This document shows positions 13,600 to 26,560 of a stretch of 26,810 nt of DNA, piece after piece. Positions within the stretch are counted from its first letter, which is position 1. Each line of letters starts with the position of its first letter. Source of the stretch: a virus; the IMG/VR virus record IMGVR_UViG_3300025917_000053, positions 1 through 26,810 of that record, one strand, 5' to 3'. Under the pieces are notes generated by a model that searched no databases, was not told where the DNA came from, and saw nothing but the letters and a program-made list of their open reading frames with translations. The position numbers were made by a program, and so were the translations under genes.

Positions 13600-14088
13600 T
13601 CAGGAACCGGTGGCCAGCTTGTCGGCCACTGCGTTGGCGTCGCCCGGCGTGGGCTGGACGACTCGGACGATCGGAACCCCGGCCGTGGTCTGGCCGACGA
13701 TGACGCCGAACCACCCGTCGGCTTCGGAGTTCGCGACGAGGGTGGCGCGCGTCGAACCGGCGGCGACGTTGATGCCGACCGGAGTACCGGAACCCATCTC
13801 CTCCGCGTCCCAGCCGGTGACCGGGAAGGCGAAGGCGCCCGTGAGGGCGATGGAGGCCCAGCCGGGCTCCAGCGAGTTCGCGGTGTTGCGCGCGACGGAG
13901 ACCGTGGTCATGCCGGTCGTGTAGGAAACCGGCTTGCCGCCGACCTCCTGCGCGAAGCCGACGATCGAACCGATCTTGACCGGGTCGCCGTTGATCGTGG
14001 GGTCGTCGTTGACCGCCGGGTCACTGCCCCGGAGCGGCAGCGGAAGGGAAATCCAGTCCGCGTACTTGAAGATCTCGTTCGTGGCCAT
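13600..14088 (-). CDS. Capsid decoration or stabilisation protein
   Basis: A 162-residue beta-rich protein starting MATNEIFKYADWISLPLP at an ATG overlapping the previous TGA by one base. The stretches VKIGSIVGFAQEVGG, ALTGAFAFPVTGWDA and GVIVGQTTAGVPIVRVVQP resemble the DUF2190-like decoration proteins that commonly sit just before phage capsid genes. It probably binds the outside of the head. It lies 17 bases before the capsid gene, so the two are co-expressed. Confidence 0.85.
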   Translation of the reverse strand: MATNEIFKYADWISLPLPLRGSDPAVNDDPTINGDPVKIGSIVGFAQEVGGKPVSYTTGMTTVSVARNTANSLEPGWASIALTGAFAFPVTGWDAEEMGSGTPVGINVAAGSTRATLVANSEADGWFGVIVGQTTAGVPIVRVVQPTPGDANAVADKLATGS

Positions 14089-15167
14089 CAGTAGGTACCT
14101 CCGCCCAGCAGGCTCCGGATCTCGGCGAGATCGCTGTCGCCCGTGGAGGGGAAGGACGTCGAGGACTCCGTCAGGCCGAGGCCCGACGGCTCGCGGCCCT
14201 CGCTGAGCGCGCCGCGCTCGGTCTCCCGTCGGAGCTGCTTCAGGTACTCGCGCTCGTGGGTGATCGACTCGTGCAGGTCCTGGTCCGGACGGTAGGACTG
14301 CGCGATACGGATCATGGAGGGAAGCGGCAGCTTCGCCTCCAGCAGTTCGGTGAGGACGTCACCGGTCGTCTTGCTCTCCTTGAGCGCCTTGTCGGCGGTC
14401 TCGGCGCGGTCACGCAGGTACGTGATCGTCTCCTGGAGCTTGACGCGCTCCCGCATCTGCTTCTCGGCCTCGCGGCGCGACTCCTGAAGCTGCGAAGACA
14501 TGCGCGCGACGTCGACCGAAAGCTGCTCGACGCGGTCGGAGAGGGTGTCCTTGAGGGCGGCGACCTCGCTGAGGAGGGTGCCGGTTCCGATGGTGGACGG
14601 AATCGCTGCACTCGCGGCCGGGGCGGCGGTGCTCGCGGTCTGCTCGGCCGGAGGGGACTCCGGCGTGGCCGACTCGGTCATGGTGACGAGCCTTCCTCCC
14701 GCTCCAGCGCGGGTGACGAGGTCAACAGAGAGACCTTGCTGAATGCTGCGCACAATACGCTGCCCAGCGGTCTCCTCGATCTGGCCTGCTGCACGGATCG
14801 AGAGACCGATCACGCTGTGCAGCTCCTTGGCGATCGGCTTGGCCTTCTCCGTGAACTGGATTCGGGAGAAGAGCCCGCGTCCTTCTGGTGTCTCTTCGAA
14901 GGTCGCGTCGTCGAGAAGGTACCCGGCGATTTTCAGGACGCTGCGTTCGGGGAGGTCCATCTCTTCCGACTCGGAAGGGTGGTCGAAGTAGATGTGAGTC
15001 CCGGCGGGAAAGGCGCGAGCGCCATCCCGCTTCAGCACTTCGGCGGGGTAGTACCCACTGGAGCCCTGCACGTCGGCAGCGATGAGGAGTGCACGCCAGA
15101 TGCCCTTCTCCGGCGACTGGGCGTCCTCGGAGAGGATCGCGGTTTCCCGCAGGGTTTCCGTGGACAT
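14088..15167 (-). CDS. Capsid maturation protease fused to scaffold domain
   Basis: A 359-residue protein; I chose the ATG giving MSTETLRETAILSEDAQ because GAGGGGG lies just upstream. Residues about 20-160 look like a prohead serine protease: FDHPSESEE carries H63 and IGLSIRA carries S123, the usual His-Ser pair. After an Ala/Pro linker (about 165-195), residues about 205-310 form a long charged coiled coil (DRVEQLSVDVARMSSQLQ and following) typical of a scaffold. Such fusions assemble the procapsid and then degrade the scaffold from within. The stop overlaps the decoration gene start (TGATG). Confidence 0.88.
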   Translation of the reverse strand: MSTETLRETAILSEDAQSPEKGIWRALLIAADVQGSSGYYPAEVLKRDGARAFPAGTHIYFDHPSESEEMDLPERSVLKIAGYLLDDATFEETPEGRGLFSRIQFTEKAKPIAKELHSVIGLSIRAAGQIEETAGQRIVRSIQQGLSVDLVTRAGAGGRLVTMTESATPESPPAEQTASTAAPAASAAIPSTIGTGTLLSEVAALKDTLSDRVEQLSVDVARMSSQLQESRREAEKQMRERVKLQETITYLRDRAETADKALKESKTTGDVLTELLEAKLPLPSMIRIAQSYRPDQDLHESITHEREYLKQLRRETERGALSEGREPSGLGLTESSTSFPSTGDSDLAEIRSLLGGGTY

Positions 15168-15202
15168 GAGCCCCCTCACTGATCATCGACGAGCACAGCG
15201 TA

Positions 15203-17718: not shown

Positions 17719-20088
17719 TCAGTAGGGCGAGATCATCTCCTCGGCGAAGTACTCGTTCTCCTCGACCAGCGAACCGGCCATGTTCTCAGCCGTCTCGGTG
17801 AGCACGTCTCCCTGTTGAAGACCCTCGGCTACCGGGGCGACCGCGTAGGCAATGGCGTCGGCGTAGTCGGGGGACTTGCCGTACTCCTTGCGCATGTCCT
17901 CCTTGGAGGCGATGAGAAGGCGCCCGTTCTTGATCGAGTAGAAGACCATCTTCAGGTCGTCAGAGATCAGCTCGTCGGGGTCGATGAACTTCACCGAGCC
18001 GTTGCGCATCTTCTGCCGGACCTGCTCGAACCAGTACGCCCTTGCGTTGTAGAAGCCGTAGACCGAACCGCCGACGTTTACCGGGGGTGCGGCCGATCCG
18101 TGCATCTCGTAGACCGTGAACCAGGGGTCCGGCAGCAGCATCGCTCGGGCGTTCAGGGTGTCGACGACACCGGCACCCAGGCCGACGGCGTCCACCCGGA
18201 TCTCCACCCAGGGCGCCTTGCGCTCTTCCTTCAAGCGCTCGGCGATCTGGAGAACCTTGTGAGCCGAGGACACCGTGTCAGTCCCGGACCAGGACTCCTC
18301 GATCTGCGCGGTCACGCCGGAGTACGAGGCGACCACCGTCTTGTCGGAGCCGAAACGCGCGACGTCGACACCCAAGCGCAGTACCGAGTACAGCGACGGA
18401 GTCGGGGGTTCGTCGACCGCGTCGGCCACCAGGGAGGGGGCGAACAGCGACGACATGCTCTGCTCGGGGAACTTGGCCAGCACCTTCGCGATGTAGCGCG
18501 GGTCCTTCTCGCCCCAGTCGTCCAGACGCTCCTGCACCCAGTCGCGCGAGACGAGGACTTCGTTCAGCAGCTTCGGCACCGGCTCGCCCGTGAAGTTCGG
18601 CGTGCTCGACGCCGGGATCGAGATCCGGTTCCACAGGTGCGCGGTCTTCTGCTCCATGAAGTTCTTGCCGAAGTCCGTGTTCCGGTCATCGGGGTTTCCG
18701 ATGGCCAGGATCCGGCAGCCGATGTTCGTGGTGATGGCCTCGACACCGGTCCAGATCTCCTCGGGGATACCGCACGCCTCGTCGAGCAGGGCCAGCACGT
18801 ATCGGCGGTGGATACCGTGGAAGGAGTGGCGGTCACCCTTGGCGGGCTTCCGGCCGAAGCCGACGATCTGCCCGTCGCCCAGCTTCCACTCATCGGCCTG
18901 GGTCACGCGGCCCGGCATCGGGTATTCGCCGCGCGAGGCGTTCGAGTGGTGCTTGCGGATCTCCTCCCAGAGGATCTTGTTGACCTGGGCGTAGGTCGGC
19001 GCCGTCGAGACGACGATCGCCTGGCCCGGCGGCTTCGTCGACACCCACCAGCACGCGAGCACCGAAGCGATCATCGAGTTGTGGGTGGGAATCCCGCGCT
19101 CGCCGCAGAGGTAGAGGTGGTCGGGCGAGTCCACCTGGATGCACTGCACGTCCCGCTCGCCGACTGGCTTCACGGACGTGATCCGCCAGCCGTCGTCACC
19201 CCAGGATCCCTGGGTCAGCAGAAGGTGCGACAGGGCGATGGCCCGCTGATTGGCATCCGGCAGAAGGGTCGGGGCGTGAGATCCCATCAGCGCCAGGTGC
19301 CGCATGGTGATGCCGTACTGCCGCTCGCGCCGGTAGATCGTCTGGACGCCCGCCTCGCGCATCCGGGCCCGCACCGAGGAGATCTCCTCCGGCTCGCCCT
19401 GGCGCGTCTTCCAGAGCAGCGCGGTACGCCCGTGAGGATCGAGTCCGCCGCGTTCGGCGAGCAGAGCCTGCATCGCCTCATCTGCCGACCACGTCAGACC
19501 CCGGGGAAGGATCTCCGGAGCCCGGCCGGGAACAACGACCGTGCCGGGCCGCAGCTTGGCGATCTGCTTGGTGGCCATGGTCTTCGCCTTGTGCATCCAC
19601 AACCCGGTCTCCACCGGTACACCCGCTCGGTCGGACTTGAGCTGGATGTCGGCGAGACCCTGAAGGTCGAGCACCGGCCAGACGTGATCGGCCGAGGCGA
19701 TGATCTCCTCGTGAGCACCGCCCCTTTCCAGACGGACGACGTAACTCTCGGCCTTGTGCTCACCCGTGACGGCCACCACCTCGACCGGCGAGCCGTCGGA
19801 GCCCAGCACCTTCGTGCCCTCGGTGATCTCCCCCATCCTCACGGGGCCCGACGGGGTGTGGACCAGCTCGTCCAGCCCGAGCGCCTTGCCGGTGCCGTGA
19901 CAGGAGGCGACCACCGTGCGCTTGTTCCGGATGAGGGAGGAGCAGATTTCTTGCTGCTTGCTCCACAGATGGACACCGAGAACATCCCTGGCCCACCCCA
20001 CGGGATTGTTGACCCATCCGGCCTGCCGCGCCTGATTGCGGAAGTATGCCTCCGCCTCGGCGGCGATCCGCTCTTCGTGTGAGGACAT
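17719..20088 (-). CDS. terL: Terminase large subunit containing an intein
   Basis: A 789-residue precursor from the ATG giving MSSHEERIAAEAEAYF, with GAAAGGA upstream. Removing the 269-residue intein leaves 520 residues, the usual TerL size. The ATPase domain has the P-loop SCHGTGK|S (residues 62-68 and 338), split by the intein, and Walker B VLALLDE at 431-437. The nuclease domain shows acidic residues at D575 (LGVDVARFGSDKT), D633 (VDAVGLGAG) and D741/D744 (SPDYADAIAYA). The enzyme cuts concatemeric DNA and pumps it through the portal. ATPase activity should need intein excision, because the catalytic Lys and Ser are separated in the precursor. Confidence 0.95.
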   Translation of the reverse strand: MSSHEERIAAEAEAYFRNQARQAGWVNNPVGWARDVLGVHLWSKQQEICSSLIRNKRTVVASCHGTGKALGLDELVHTPSGPVRMGEITEGTKVLGSDGSPVEVVAVTGEHKAESYVVRLERGGAHEEIIASADHVWPVLDLQGLADIQLKSDRAGVPVETGLWMHKAKTMATKQIAKLRPGTVVVPGRAPEILPRGLTWSADEAMQALLAERGGLDPHGRTALLWKTRQGEPEEISSVRARMREAGVQTIYRRERQYGITMRHLALMGSHAPTLLPDANQRAIALSHLLLTQGSWGDDGWRITSVKPVGERDVQCIQVDSPDHLYLCGERGIPTHNSMIASVLACWWVSTKPPGQAIVVSTAPTYAQVNKILWEEIRKHHSNASRGEYPMPGRVTQADEWKLGDGQIVGFGRKPAKGDRHSFHGIHRRYVLALLDEACGIPEEIWTGVEAITTNIGCRILAIGNPDDRNTDFGKNFMEQKTAHLWNRISIPASSTPNFTGEPVPKLLNEVLVSRDWVQERLDDWGEKDPRYIAKVLAKFPEQSMSSLFAPSLVADAVDEPPTPSLYSVLRLGVDVARFGSDKTVVASYSGVTAQIEESWSGTDTVSSAHKVLQIAERLKEERKAPWVEIRVDAVGLGAGVVDTLNARAMLLPDPWFTVYEMHGSAAPPVNVGGSVYGFYNARAYWFEQVRQKMRNGSVKFIDPDELISDDLKMVFYSIKNGRLLIASKEDMRKEYGKSPDYADAIAYAVAPVAEGLQQGDVLTETAENMAGSLVEENEYFAEEMISPY
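19078..19884 (-). other. Class 3 intein in terminase P-loop (269 residues)
   Basis: Intein numbering begins at the Ala after GTGK. It lacks an N-terminal Cys or Ser (ALGLDELVHTPSG) and carries the three class 3 marks: W69 in block B (ASADHVW), C248 in block F (DVQCIQVDSPDHLYL) and T267 in block G (GIPTHN followed by Ser). In class 3 inteins the block F Cys forms the branched intermediate, then Asn cyclises. The central region has no intact LAGLIDADG motif; QALLAERGGLDPHGR (139-153) looks like a worn copy lacking the acidic catalytic position, so homing activity has probably been lost. The splice junction is between Lys68 and Ser338 of the precursor. Confidence 0.9.
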
Positions 20089-20212
20089 GCCGTTCCTTTC
20101 TGCTGCGACGCGTACAGCATTCCTCACCGGGGAACATTTTCGGTAACCTTGTGATGCCCCACCCGCGCAGCACTGGGCAGCGCGGACTCCACTTCCTGGG
20201 GCTGAGACTCAC

Positions 20213-23415: not shown

Positions 23416-23760
23416 TCAGTCAACAGCAGGCGACAGAGTTTGTCCATTCGTATCATGAACGCAGTCGCCACCACAGGGGCACGCGAGAGCCTTCGCGGCG
23501 CAGCAGCGGCAGAAGTACCAGAACGATTCGGGGCAGTCGTCGAACAGACCGGTCAGCCCCTCCCAGAAGAACGTGATGCCGCAGGTCTCGCACTCCATCA
23601 GATCACTCGGGCAGGAGACCCCCTTCCGGCGCGGCAACCAGGCGTTCTTCAGCGACTCGCAGTCCTGGTCGTGGGCGAGGATCAGGTCGCGCTGACCGGT
23701 GAACACGCCGCCGCCGTCGGGGTTCTGCGCCCAGCGCTCCACGTACGCATCGAGGGGCAT
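23416..23760 (-). CDS. Cysteine-rich hypothetical protein
   Basis: A 114-residue protein starting MPLDAYVERWAQNPDGGG at an ATG overlapping the previous TGA. The second half is cysteine-rich: CPSDLMECETCG, WYFCRCCAAKALACPCGGDC. At least two zinc sites are plausible. TCGITFFWEGLTGLF is typical of a zinc-ribbon hairpin. It is translationally coupled to the helical protein upstream. The function is unknown. Confidence 0.75.
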   Translation of the reverse strand: MPLDAYVERWAQNPDGGGVFTGQRDLILAHDQDCESLKNAWLPRRKGVSCPSDLMECETCGITFFWEGLTGLFDDCPESFWYFCRCCAAKALACPCGGDCVHDTNGQTLSPAVD

Positions 23761-24353
23761 CAGTCGAACTCCTCCATCACCGGCTCCAGCTCGATGGGTC
23801 CGGTCGTGCTGTTGCCGCCCACCTTGACGATCGCGGCCGAGTTGCGGGCGATGGCGTCGGCGGCCATGGCGGGGAAGACCTCGCCCCACATCTGCTCGAC
23901 GGCCTCCCGGGATTCCTCGGGCAGCAGGTCGACGACCTTCTCCAGCATGCCCACCCGGATGGCCTCGATCGCCGTGGTGACGAGCTGGGTCTGCGCCTGG
24001 GTGAGCCGGATCTGTTCGTCGCGCAGCCGGTCCTTCTTCAGGTCCATCAGCTCGGTGATCTCGCGGACCGTCTCGATCAGGTTCTTCGCGTTGCGCCCCT
24101 GGGTGAGAAGGTCTCCGTCCATCACCTGCTGCCACAGGGCGCCGAGAATCCTCTCCAGCCGGGCGAGCTGGAGCATGCGCATCTGCACGATGGACATGCT
24201 CGTCGCCTGGTCTTCGAGGTACGCGTTCATCCGCTCGTGGACGGCCTCGATCTCCATCCCAGTCCGGGCGGCGATCTGCGCAAGCGTCATGCCCTGCGCG
24301 GCGTAGTCCACCATCACCTGAGCGAGCGAGTCGTGTGCCAATGTCCTCACCAC
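23760..24353 (-). CDS. HTH/coiled-coil protein, candidate small terminase-like
   Basis: A 197-residue protein from one of two tandem GTG codons (24353 or 24350); no strong ribosome site is present. The N-terminus holds GMTLAQIAARTGMEIEAVHER, a helix-turn-helix of small-terminase style, followed by a long helical region (MRMLQLARLERILGALWQQV; LIETVREITELMDLKKDRL). HTH plus coiled coil is the usual build of TerS, which recognises the packaging site. No other TerS candidate lies beside terL, but this gene is 4 kb from it, so the call is tentative. It is divergent from an RHH gene. Confidence 0.6.
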   Translation of the reverse strand: MVRTLAHDSLAQVMVDYAAQGMTLAQIAARTGMEIEAVHERMNAYLEDQATSMSIVQMRMLQLARLERILGALWQQVMDGDLLTQGRNAKNLIETVREITELMDLKKDRLRDEQIRLTQAQTQLVTTAIEAIRVGMLEKVVDLLPEESREAVEQMWGEVFPAMAADAIARNSAAIVKVGGNSTTGPIELEPVMEEFD

Positions 24354-24671: not shown

Positions 24672-24818
24672 TCAGCGCTCGGTTTTCAGTGGCCCTAGGA
24701 TCTTGATACCTCCTTGGTACTGCGGATGCCGGGCCTGGCTCTGGATCTTCTCGAACCACAACCGGACCGCTTCCCGGTCCATGTCCATCACGACGATGAT
24801 CTCTTGGGTTTCTGCCAT
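24672..24818 (-). CDS. Small hypothetical protein (48 aa)
   Basis: The frame runs MAETQEIIVVMDMDREAVRL and ends GIKILGPLKTER. It overlaps the membrane-protein gene by 31 bases and its ribosome site is weak, so translation may be coupled. The sequence pattern, strand then helix then strand, and good codon use support a real gene. The helix WFEKIQSQARHPQ is followed by a Gly-rich turn. No family is recognised. Confidence 0.6.
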   Translation of the reverse strand: MAETQEIIVVMDMDREAVRLWFEKIQSQARHPQYQGGIKILGPLKTER

Positions 24819-25069
24819 GAATCCAGACCATCACGGGCCTGGCCGGATTCAGGAGAAACGGGCCTGCGCCACGCACGGAAGTTCTTGAGATATACCCATC
24901 CGTACGCGCCCGCCGAGACGAGGAAACCGTATTGCCTCGTACTGATGGCGTACGCGAGCCAGAGCCCCTGAGCCGCCAGGCCCACCGCCCAGCCCCAGGG
25001 GCTCTTCCTGCCCGCCAGCCACAGGCCGAAGACGCCCACGGCCGTCAGCACCCAGCTCCACCACTGCAA
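24788..25069 (-). CDS. Small integral membrane protein
   Basis: A 93-residue protein, from TTG at 25069 (MQWWSWVLTAVGVFGLWLAG) or GTG at 25051, which has GGAG upstream. I prefer the longer form because its WWSW start resembles related short actinophage membrane proteins. Three hydrophobic segments are visible: about 3-20, 25-44 (GWAVGLAAQGLWLAYAIST) and 46-62 (YGFLVSAGAYGWVYL). The spacing is somewhat like one half of PnuC-type transporters, but it is too short to be one. The tail is basic and cytoplasmic. Confidence 0.7.
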   Translation of the reverse strand: MQWWSWVLTAVGVFGLWLAGRKSPWGWAVGLAAQGLWLAYAISTRQYGFLVSAGAYGWVYLKNFRAWRRPVSPESGQARDGLDSWQKPKRSSS

Positions 25070-25148: not shown

Positions 25149-26048
25149 TCAGATCGAGATGCCGACCTCGGCCCATGCCTCGCGCACCGCAGGGTTCAGC
25201 CCGCCGGAGTGTGTCCACGTGGCCAGCGCGAGCTGCTTGAAGGTCGAGCGCGGTCCGAGATCTTCCATCGCCCGGCGCCACATCGCCAGCGGCCGTCCCC
25301 AGCTCGGCTCCCCGGTCTTCTCGCAGAGCAGGGCGAAGGCCCGGTTGGGGATGCCGGAGTTGATGTGCACCCCGCCGTTGTCGGCCCGGATCTTCTTGTA
25401 CTGGTCCATGTGGCCCGGCTGCGGGTCCCGGCCCAGCACGTCGTTGTCATACGCGGTGCCCGGATTCAGCATGTGCCGGACCGCCGAGTGGCCGTCGACC
25501 AGGATCTCCTCACCGATGCGCCAGTCGTGCTGGTCCTGCTTCACCCACTGCTGGACACAGGCGCCGAAGACGTCGGCCAGGTGCTCGTTCAGGGCGCCGG
25601 ACTCACCGGAGTAGATGAGGCCCGGCCCGAGCGATACGAGGGCGTGGCCGAACTCGTGGGCCATGATGTCGAGCGCCTTGGTGAAGTCGCCGAACACGGC
25701 TCCGTCACCCTCGCCGAAGACGAGGTAGCTGCCGTTGAAGAAGGCGTTGGCGTACTCCCGGCCGTAGTGCACCACTCCGTCGGGGAACTCGTCGGTCCCC
25801 AGGAGCTGGCTGATCAGGTAGGCGTTGCCCTTGACCCGCTCAGCCGCTTCGTCGTCACCGCCTTGGACGAGCGAGCCGGGGATGGCCACCTTGTTGGAGG
25901 CGGTGTAGACGCGGATCGGACCGGAGGGGGCGACGGCGGTGAGCCGGTCGGCCCGCAGGGTGGTGTCGACCTTGATCCCGGCATTGAAAGACTTGTCGGT
26001 CTCGGCGACTTTCTTCGACATGTGCGGAGGGATGAAAGTGCAGATCAT
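25149..26048 (-). CDS. M4 (thermolysin/protealysin-like) metallopeptidase
   Basis: A 299-residue protein starting MICTFIPPHMSKKVAETD. All thermolysin-family marks are present: AHEFGHAL (H131, E132, H135), GALNEHLADVFG (E155 as third zinc ligand, D159), and GGVHINSGIPN (H228, transition-state His), plus HYGREYANAFFNGS before the active site. The N-terminal FIPPHM matches the protealysin-type PPxM motif, but the propeptide is almost absent and there is no signal peptide, so an intracellular or lysis-released enzyme is likely. TAGACT lies six bases before the ATG and no ribosome site is seen, suggesting leaderless mRNA. Such a peptidase is uncommon in phage genomes. Confidence 0.92.
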   Translation of the reverse strand: MICTFIPPHMSKKVAETDKSFNAGIKVDTTLRADRLTAVAPSGPIRVYTASNKVAIPGSLVQGGDDEAAERVKGNAYLISQLLGTDEFPDGVVHYGREYANAFFNGSYLVFGEGDGAVFGDFTKALDIMAHEFGHALVSLGPGLIYSGESGALNEHLADVFGACVQQWVKQDQHDWRIGEEILVDGHSAVRHMLNPGTAYDNDVLGRDPQPGHMDQYKKIRADNGGVHINSGIPNRAFALLCEKTGEPSWGRPLAMWRRAMEDLGPRSTFKQLALATWTHSGGLNPAVREAWAEVGISI

Positions 26049-26054
26049 GACGGC

Positions 26055-26084
26055 AGTCTACGCACCCCCTTCCGCCGGTAGAAT
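26055..26084. promoter_or_regulatory. Divergent -10 elements of the two peptidase genes
   Basis: On the minus strand TAGACT (26060-26055) stands six bases before the M4 peptidase ATG; on the plus strand TAGAAT (26079-26084) stands 24 bases before the next gene's GTG. Both fit TAnnnT. Their -35 regions would overlap in the 18 bases between, so the two promoters probably compete. No good -35 match is seen for either. Confidence 0.45.
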
Positions 26085-26107
26085 CCATCCGGGGAAAGGA
26101 GAACTTC

Positions 26108-26560
26108 GTGGCCCTGGAGAAGTCGTTCCGGGTGAGTACCCGCCATTCCGGCAGCCGCCGGTTCGTTCGGGTCTCCATCTACTCGGACGCGGGATCGATG
26201 CGTGATGCGGCCCTGAAGCACAGCCAGCGCGAGGGGTACATCCGTGAGGACGAGTACTACCTGGCCCACGGCGTGACCCATACGATCGACGTCCTGCGCA
26301 TCGGCGCCGACGGCAGCGAGAAGCGCAGTCCCATGGCGGCCCACATCCGGATGTACGACGGTGCCCTCGGCACCAGCGTGGTCAGCCACGAAGTGGTGCA
26401 CGCGGCGATGAGCATCTACAACCAGGACTGCCTGAAGGACGGCTCGGCCCATGAGGACATGAGCCGGGAGGAGATCCTGGCCTACCTGGTCGGCGACCTG
26501 GCGGCCCGGATCGTGAACAAGATCTACGAGTTCGGCTACTACGGAAAGGGCGAGACGTGA
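26108..26560 (+). CDS. Putative phage zinc metallopeptidase (HExxH)
   Basis: A 150-residue protein from a GTG with GGAAAGGAG upstream. The centre has SVVSHEVVHAAMSIYN, giving H94-E95-V-V-H98, a zincin signature, with MSREEILAYLVGDL downstream offering E121 or E122 as third ligand. This HEVxHA plus EExxAYxxGDL pattern occurs in small phage proteins of unknown role (from memory). The N-terminus is basic (RHSGSRRFVRVSIY) and beta-rich. It is divergent from the M4 peptidase and overlaps the next gene (GTGA). A peptidase role is inferred from motif only. Confidence 0.75.
   Translation: MALEKSFRVSTRHSGSRRFVRVSIYSDAGSMRDAALKHSQREGYIREDEYYLAHGVTHTIDVLRIGADGSEKRSPMAAHIRMYDGALGTSVVSHEVVHAAMSIYNQDCLKDGSAHEDMSREEILAYLVGDLAARIVNKIYEFGYYGKGET

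Follow-up and report, generated by a model that had tools for sequence, protein, structure and literature searches.

We have analysed a 26.8-kb virus record (IMG/VR IMGVR_UViG_3300025917_000053, in full, hereafter the window), in which the gene of a compact M4 metalloprotease lies divergent from a gene encoding a small protein with an HEVVH motif (the HEVVH protein). The window is a fragment of a cluster BM Streptomyces phage and is nearly identical to Frankenweenie, whose counterparts of the M4 and HEVVH proteins are 100% and 99.3% identical, respectively. The genome of Frankenweenie, a siphovirus that is probably not temperate, measures 200 kb, and its head is prolate and very long (PMC10652959). 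The locus comprises the following features:

25149..26048, minus strand: compact protealysin-like M4 metalloprotease of 299 residues with an ATG start, assigned by Pfam and structure match; it corresponds to gp14 of Frankenweenie, annotated as metalloprotease.
25947..26048, minus strand: shortened propeptide of the M4 enzyme (residues 1-34, the boundary being approximate), with an invariant Cys3, FIPPHM/I (PPL motif) and two predicted helices.
25644..25658, minus strand: HEFGH zinc-binding and catalytic motif, residues 131-135 of the M4 enzyme.
26055..26060, minus strand: TAGACT -10-like element, 6 bases 5' of the M4 ATG; predicted leaderless promoter, based on conservation.
26079..26084, plus strand: TAGAAT -10-like element for the divergent gene, present in close relatives and in contig L013.
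26095..26101, plus strand: AAAGGAG ribosome-binding site of the HEVVH gene, matching the RRGGAG of Streptomyces lividans (PMC6742748).
26108..26560, plus strand: HEVVH protein of 150 residues with a GTG start; H94, E95, H98 and E122 are invariant in its family of small metalloprotease-like phage proteins, and it is not obligately paired with M4.

An earlier note on this DNA had described a complete protealysin-like M4 enzyme devoid of a signal peptide, and the present analysis bore this out. The gene is intact and its product matched the Pfam families Peptidase_M4_C (E = 1e-34) and Peptidase_M4 (E = 1e-13), with the protealysin precursor 2VQX as the nearest solved structure (E = 3e-51). The AlphaFold2 model (mean predicted local distance difference test score of 92) also had 2VQX as its best PDB match, with a template modelling (TM) score of 0.88 over 324 alignment columns, whereas thermolysin scored lower (0.76). 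Eleven of 12 checked positions were identical in all 96 aligned phage and bacterial sequences, including the HExxH motif, the zinc ligand E155, N101, Y146, D159, R191, D223 and H228; the twelfth, N105, was either N or D. With the HExxH, the downstream Glu and the conserved Asn/Tyr/Arg/Asp/His set all present, the alignment supports membership in the M4 family and an intact catalytic site, while the closest homology and the modelled fold support a protealysin-like assignment. Direct reading of the M4 N-terminus revealed no hydrophobic signal segment. GenBank labels the gene "metalloprotease" in all seven isolated BM phages; a GenBank note calls gp9 of Kradal (L020:1501-2397) a SprT protease, a label that the M4 sequence does not support.

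M4 enzymes had been considered rare in phages, and this proved correct: 16 of 50,697 phage records matched the M4 protein, with close full-length relatives confined to the BM phages. The gene was present in 7/7 of these and in 11 IMG/VR contigs, with identities down to 68%. The other matching records (from Listeria, Staphylococcus, Pseudomonas and Enterococcus phages, unannotated and partial, plus the faecal record MT836139) were treated as probable host DNA, the open reading frames (ORFs) flanking the match in MT836139, the one inspected, having a bacterial look. For comparison, we have used the best 80 bacterial relatives among the matches listed (Actinomycetota, Pseudomonadota, Cyanobacteriota and others). 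In the resulting tree the phage proteins formed a single clade (support 100/100) on a stem of length 2.0, placed outside the Streptomyces enzymes and not nested among them. Since this clade is single and long-stemmed, and the bacterial relatives among the matches listed are at best ~40% identical to it, the phage M4 is unlikely to be a recent host capture; a recent origin from the Streptomyces host was rejected by the tree built with those 80 sequences. None of the plasmid relatives reached 60% identity, and all were of the bacterial type. The phylogeny thus points to an old, deeply diverged phage lineage. Codon comparison of M4 pairs with identities down to 78% gave ratios of nonsynonymous to synonymous substitution (dN/dS) of 0.06-0.28, indicating that purifying selection maintains the protein.

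The N-terminus had been described as having almost no propeptide, which was too strong. In the predicted structure, residues 1 to ~35 fold as a strand and two helices bearing the PPL motif, which is contained in the starting sequence MICTFIPPHM and is typical of protealysin-like propeptides (PMC6778150). The PPHM residues had also been taken to suggest that activation differs from that of normal protealysins. They are instead a standard PPL motif: a PPx motif of this type was found in 72 of the 80 bacterial relatives, whose N-termini read FCTIVPPHL, YCSIVPPYM and similar at this position, and PPHM was accordingly rejected as an oddity. The phage enzyme retains the helix that follows the motif and then a second helix, in which VDTTLRA-R corresponds to the bacterial TL--D--LR--R segment. 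What differs is the stretch from PP to LPG, with 50 residues in the phage M4 versus 58-90 (median 67) in 79 bacterial relatives. Two segments further on, in catalytic-domain loops, are ~9 and ~6 residues shorter, and the part C-terminal of HExxH has 169-171 residues versus at least 178 in the bacterial relatives. Using the mature N-terminus quoted in PMC7311988 and the 2VQX alignment, the stretch absent from the phage M4 appears to align where the mature Serratia enzyme begins. From these alignments, the phage M4 keeps a short propeptide, the trimming having affected mainly the processing linker, plus some loops. It is this shortened linker, and not PPHM, that makes a changed activation route possible. 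The Pfam propeptide model PLN_propep (PF16485) did not match the phage M4 even at an E-value of 10; this model is narrow, since the Streptomyces relative L047 fell below its cut-off and L039 gave no match.

The gene environment of the enzyme differs from that of its bacterial relatives. In Serratia, the protealysin operon encodes a protein inhibitor, emfourin (PMC9505478), and in 18 of 19 actinobacterial genomes an emfourin gene lay directly downstream of the protease relative, 33-130 bases away. In contrast, no emfourin (PF20242) scored above the cut-off in the window, in four complete BM genomes or in eight further BM-like contigs. The earlier remark that no emfourin-like gene is visible beside M4 thus holds at the window and extends to complete genomes of relatives. 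A hidden emfourin was considered and rejected, the one candidate being a sub-threshold match interrupted by stops in a single contig (14.5 bits versus a cut-off of 27).

The M4 and HEVVH genes are separated by 59 bases, and the TAGACT and TAGAAT hexamers, measured between their outer ends, occupy exactly 30 bases, as had been noticed before. The M4 gene has an ATG start and no purine-rich site, whereas the HEVVH gene combines its GTG start with AAAGGAG. TAGACT preceded the M4 ATG by 6 bases (7 in L014) in all 14 upstream regions compared, while the surrounding bases differed completely between groups. The pattern TAGACT-N5-8-RTG occurred exactly once in each of the four complete BM genomes, at the M4 gene; the reversed pattern, taken as a control, occurred 2-5 times per genome. 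In S. lividans, ~20% of the genes are leaderless, with a -10 motif in place of the ribosome-binding site and a preference for AUG starts (PMC6742748), and this species is a host of the BM phages. The invariant TAGACT directly before the ATG, as in those leaderless genes, leads us to predict a leaderless M4 mRNA. A generic sigma-70 scan found no promoter with a -35 element in the region, so that a consensus -35/-10 promoter was rejected and the support for the M4 -10 element comes from its conservation rather than from a consensus match.

We have then compared the genes facing M4. The HEVVH gene occupies this position in the window, in Frankenweenie, Satis, Kradal, Quantum and EhyElimayoE (5 of 7 isolated BM phages), and in 5 of the 11 contigs. 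Its place is taken by a DNA methyltransferase gene in JustBecause, Kela, L009 and L010, by ThyX in L011 and L015, by a DUF6085-like gene in L013 and by another small protein in L014. Mapping HEVVH presence on the M4 tree required at least two changes. HEVVH relatives were also found in a Gordonia phage and in seven viral contigs where no M4 was found, several of these contigs being fragments. L013:5900-6009 retains a TAGAATCC box and a GGAAAGGAG site as before the HEVVH gene, yet a DUF6085-like gene follows; the layout looks like the outcome of insertion or loss of an HEVVH cassette. The other side of the locus is conserved, with M4 followed by a DNA-binding protein and then an O-methyltransferase, and PnuC in most members. 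The features of this side in the window are:

24788..25069, minus strand: PnuC-like short membrane protein, encoded downstream of M4 and belonging to the conserved side.
23760..24353, minus strand: DNA-binding protein, part of the same conserved side.

Satis-type phages carry an additional gene of 95 residues directly 3' of M4 (L003:5963-6250), with no Pfam match; a part in regulating the protease is conceivable.

The HEVVH protein itself, labelled "hypothetical" in GenBank, gave no significant Pfam or NCBIfam match and no PDB fold at E ≤ 0.001. Weak IrrE/SprT-like matches were obtained in BFVD, and in fold comparison it grouped with small phage proteins, most of them unnamed and one called metalloprotease. 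A zinc site is likely, because the HExxH residues (H94, E95 and H98) and the distal E122 were invariant in 11 sequences.

The computation establishes the identity, fold, intact site, conservation and clade of the M4 enzyme, the missing emfourin, the conserved -10 box and the exchange of neighbours; from these we infer that the enzyme is expressed and active, and how it may be activated and directed to its targets. The reading that we favour, and regard as reasonably probable, is that the phage M4 is a phage-specific, shortened protealysin-like precursor, translated from a leaderless mRNA and likely cleaving host proteins during infection or lysis. In the infected Streptomyces cell, the TAGACT box would give rise to the leaderless message, and the enzyme would be made in the cytoplasm and fold as a precursor with its short PPL-motif propeptide. 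Since the phage has no emfourin gene, control would rest on the propeptide and on timing, and the protease would cut host proteins either within the infected cell or at lysis, when the cell opens. In Serratia, protealysin is an intracellular enzyme that builds up as an inactive precursor and becomes active once the cell has lysed (PMC6778150). A similar activation after lysis would suit a phage, and the missing inhibitor suits an action inside the cell. Several observations weigh against this reading. The M4 gene is the first on the strand that runs on to the head genes, a position equally consistent with a late or structural role; a precursor that has lost the processing linker might never mature fully; -35 elements are not conserved, so that TAGACT might depend on a phage factor or represent a site of some other kind; and dN/dS rose to 0.51 against the most distant relative, L015, although this estimate is poor and unreliable.

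Several other accounts of the enzyme were weighed. A narrower version of the favoured reading, which we hold only tentatively, has the M4 zymogen stockpiled and activated at cell opening, digesting cytoplasmic or envelope proteins and so aiding release of the long virions from the mycelium or blocking re-adsorption to debris. The retained PPL motif and propeptide helices, together with the unusual length of BM virions (capsids of ~285-330 nm), are compatible with it, whereas the phage M4 has a shortened version of the linker at which the Serratia enzyme is processed, and no lysis cassette was seen around the gene here. Somewhat more doubtful is an autonomous, inhibitor-free protealysin acting as a host-takeover protease on core host proteins, for instance those of cell division or DNA repair such as FtsZ or RecA, both of which are cleaved by uninhibited Serratia protealysin (PMC9505478); sequence divergence and loop trimming would then possibly make the enzyme insensitive to host emfourin. 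That M4 instead serves virion assembly, trimming head or tail proteins or riding in the BM particle, appears improbable to us, despite its conservation in every BM phage and its position as first gene of a strand continuing to terminase, portal and capsid. The genes from M4 to the terminase are mostly non-structural, and the close relatives of the enzyme are soluble cellular proteins. Moreover, a separate ORF (14088-15179, minus strand) lies between portal and capsid, and its N-terminal half resembles a head maturation protease or scaffold by position and reading, with no convincing family match. The earlier suggestion of virion-protein processing hence found no positive support, the usual order of portal, protease/scaffold-like ORF and capsid being present without M4.

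The earlier note had also paired M4 with the HEVVH gene as a functional unit, that is, a two-protease module sharing a promoter. The divergent arrangement was confirmed (26108-26560 on the plus strand versus 25149-26048 on the minus strand), and adjacency in the window, Frankenweenie, the Satis group and five contigs speaks for such a module. However, M4 is intact in JustBecause, Kela and the six contigs where other genes face it, about half of the cases, HEVVH relatives occur without M4 in the records searched, and the presence of the HEVVH gene needs at least two changes along the M4 tree. We consider the module very unlikely, as synteny largely refutes it. The HEVVH gene is best described, from these gene orders, as an independent neighbour at the boundary of two transcription units, a place where genes are gained and lost.

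Apart from this locus, the large terminase ORF of the window (17719-20127, minus strand) contains an apparent intein of ~269 residues within the Walker A motif (CHGTGK / ...GIPTHN / SMIAS), with a weak match to the NCBIfam intein C-terminal model (12.4 bits versus a cut-off of 15.6).

As a phage gene, the BM M4 is real, conserved and unusual. Little is understood of the natural role of protealysins, which are intracellular enzymes, and those of the actinobacteria examined have the inhibitor beside them. With a phage lineage that keeps such a protease under selection but lacks the inhibitor, the effect of an uninhibited protealysin in a bacterial cell becomes directly testable, as does a possible action of host emfourin against phages. 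While the GenBank label "metalloprotease" was already known, the phage M4 clade, the emfourin contrast with actinobacteria and the TAGACT box are new here.

Among known systems, Serratia proteamaculans protealysin (2VQX) resembles the phage M4 in its catalytic domain, full active site, lack of a signal peptide, PPL propeptide and precursor fold. The two are ~34% identical in the structural alignment, and the phage enzyme is shorter, phage-borne and without an emfourin gene. The chromosomal protealysin-like M4 enzymes of Streptomyces (e.g., L047 and L064) belong to the same family and have an FCTIVPPH-type N-terminus, but are followed by emfourin, whereas the phage clade stands on its long stem without the inhibitor gene. 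Secreted M4 enzymes of the thermolysin/aureolysin type have the gluzincin core in common with the phage M4 and differ by their signal peptide and long propeptide; the M4 of Paenibacillus phage Callan, with 520 residues, is of this secreted type and unlike the compact BM enzyme. For the HEVVH protein, phrog_1365 and the BFVD entries from Weirdo19 and ctwHj1 ("Metalloprotease") have the same size, HExxH...E pattern and predicted fold.
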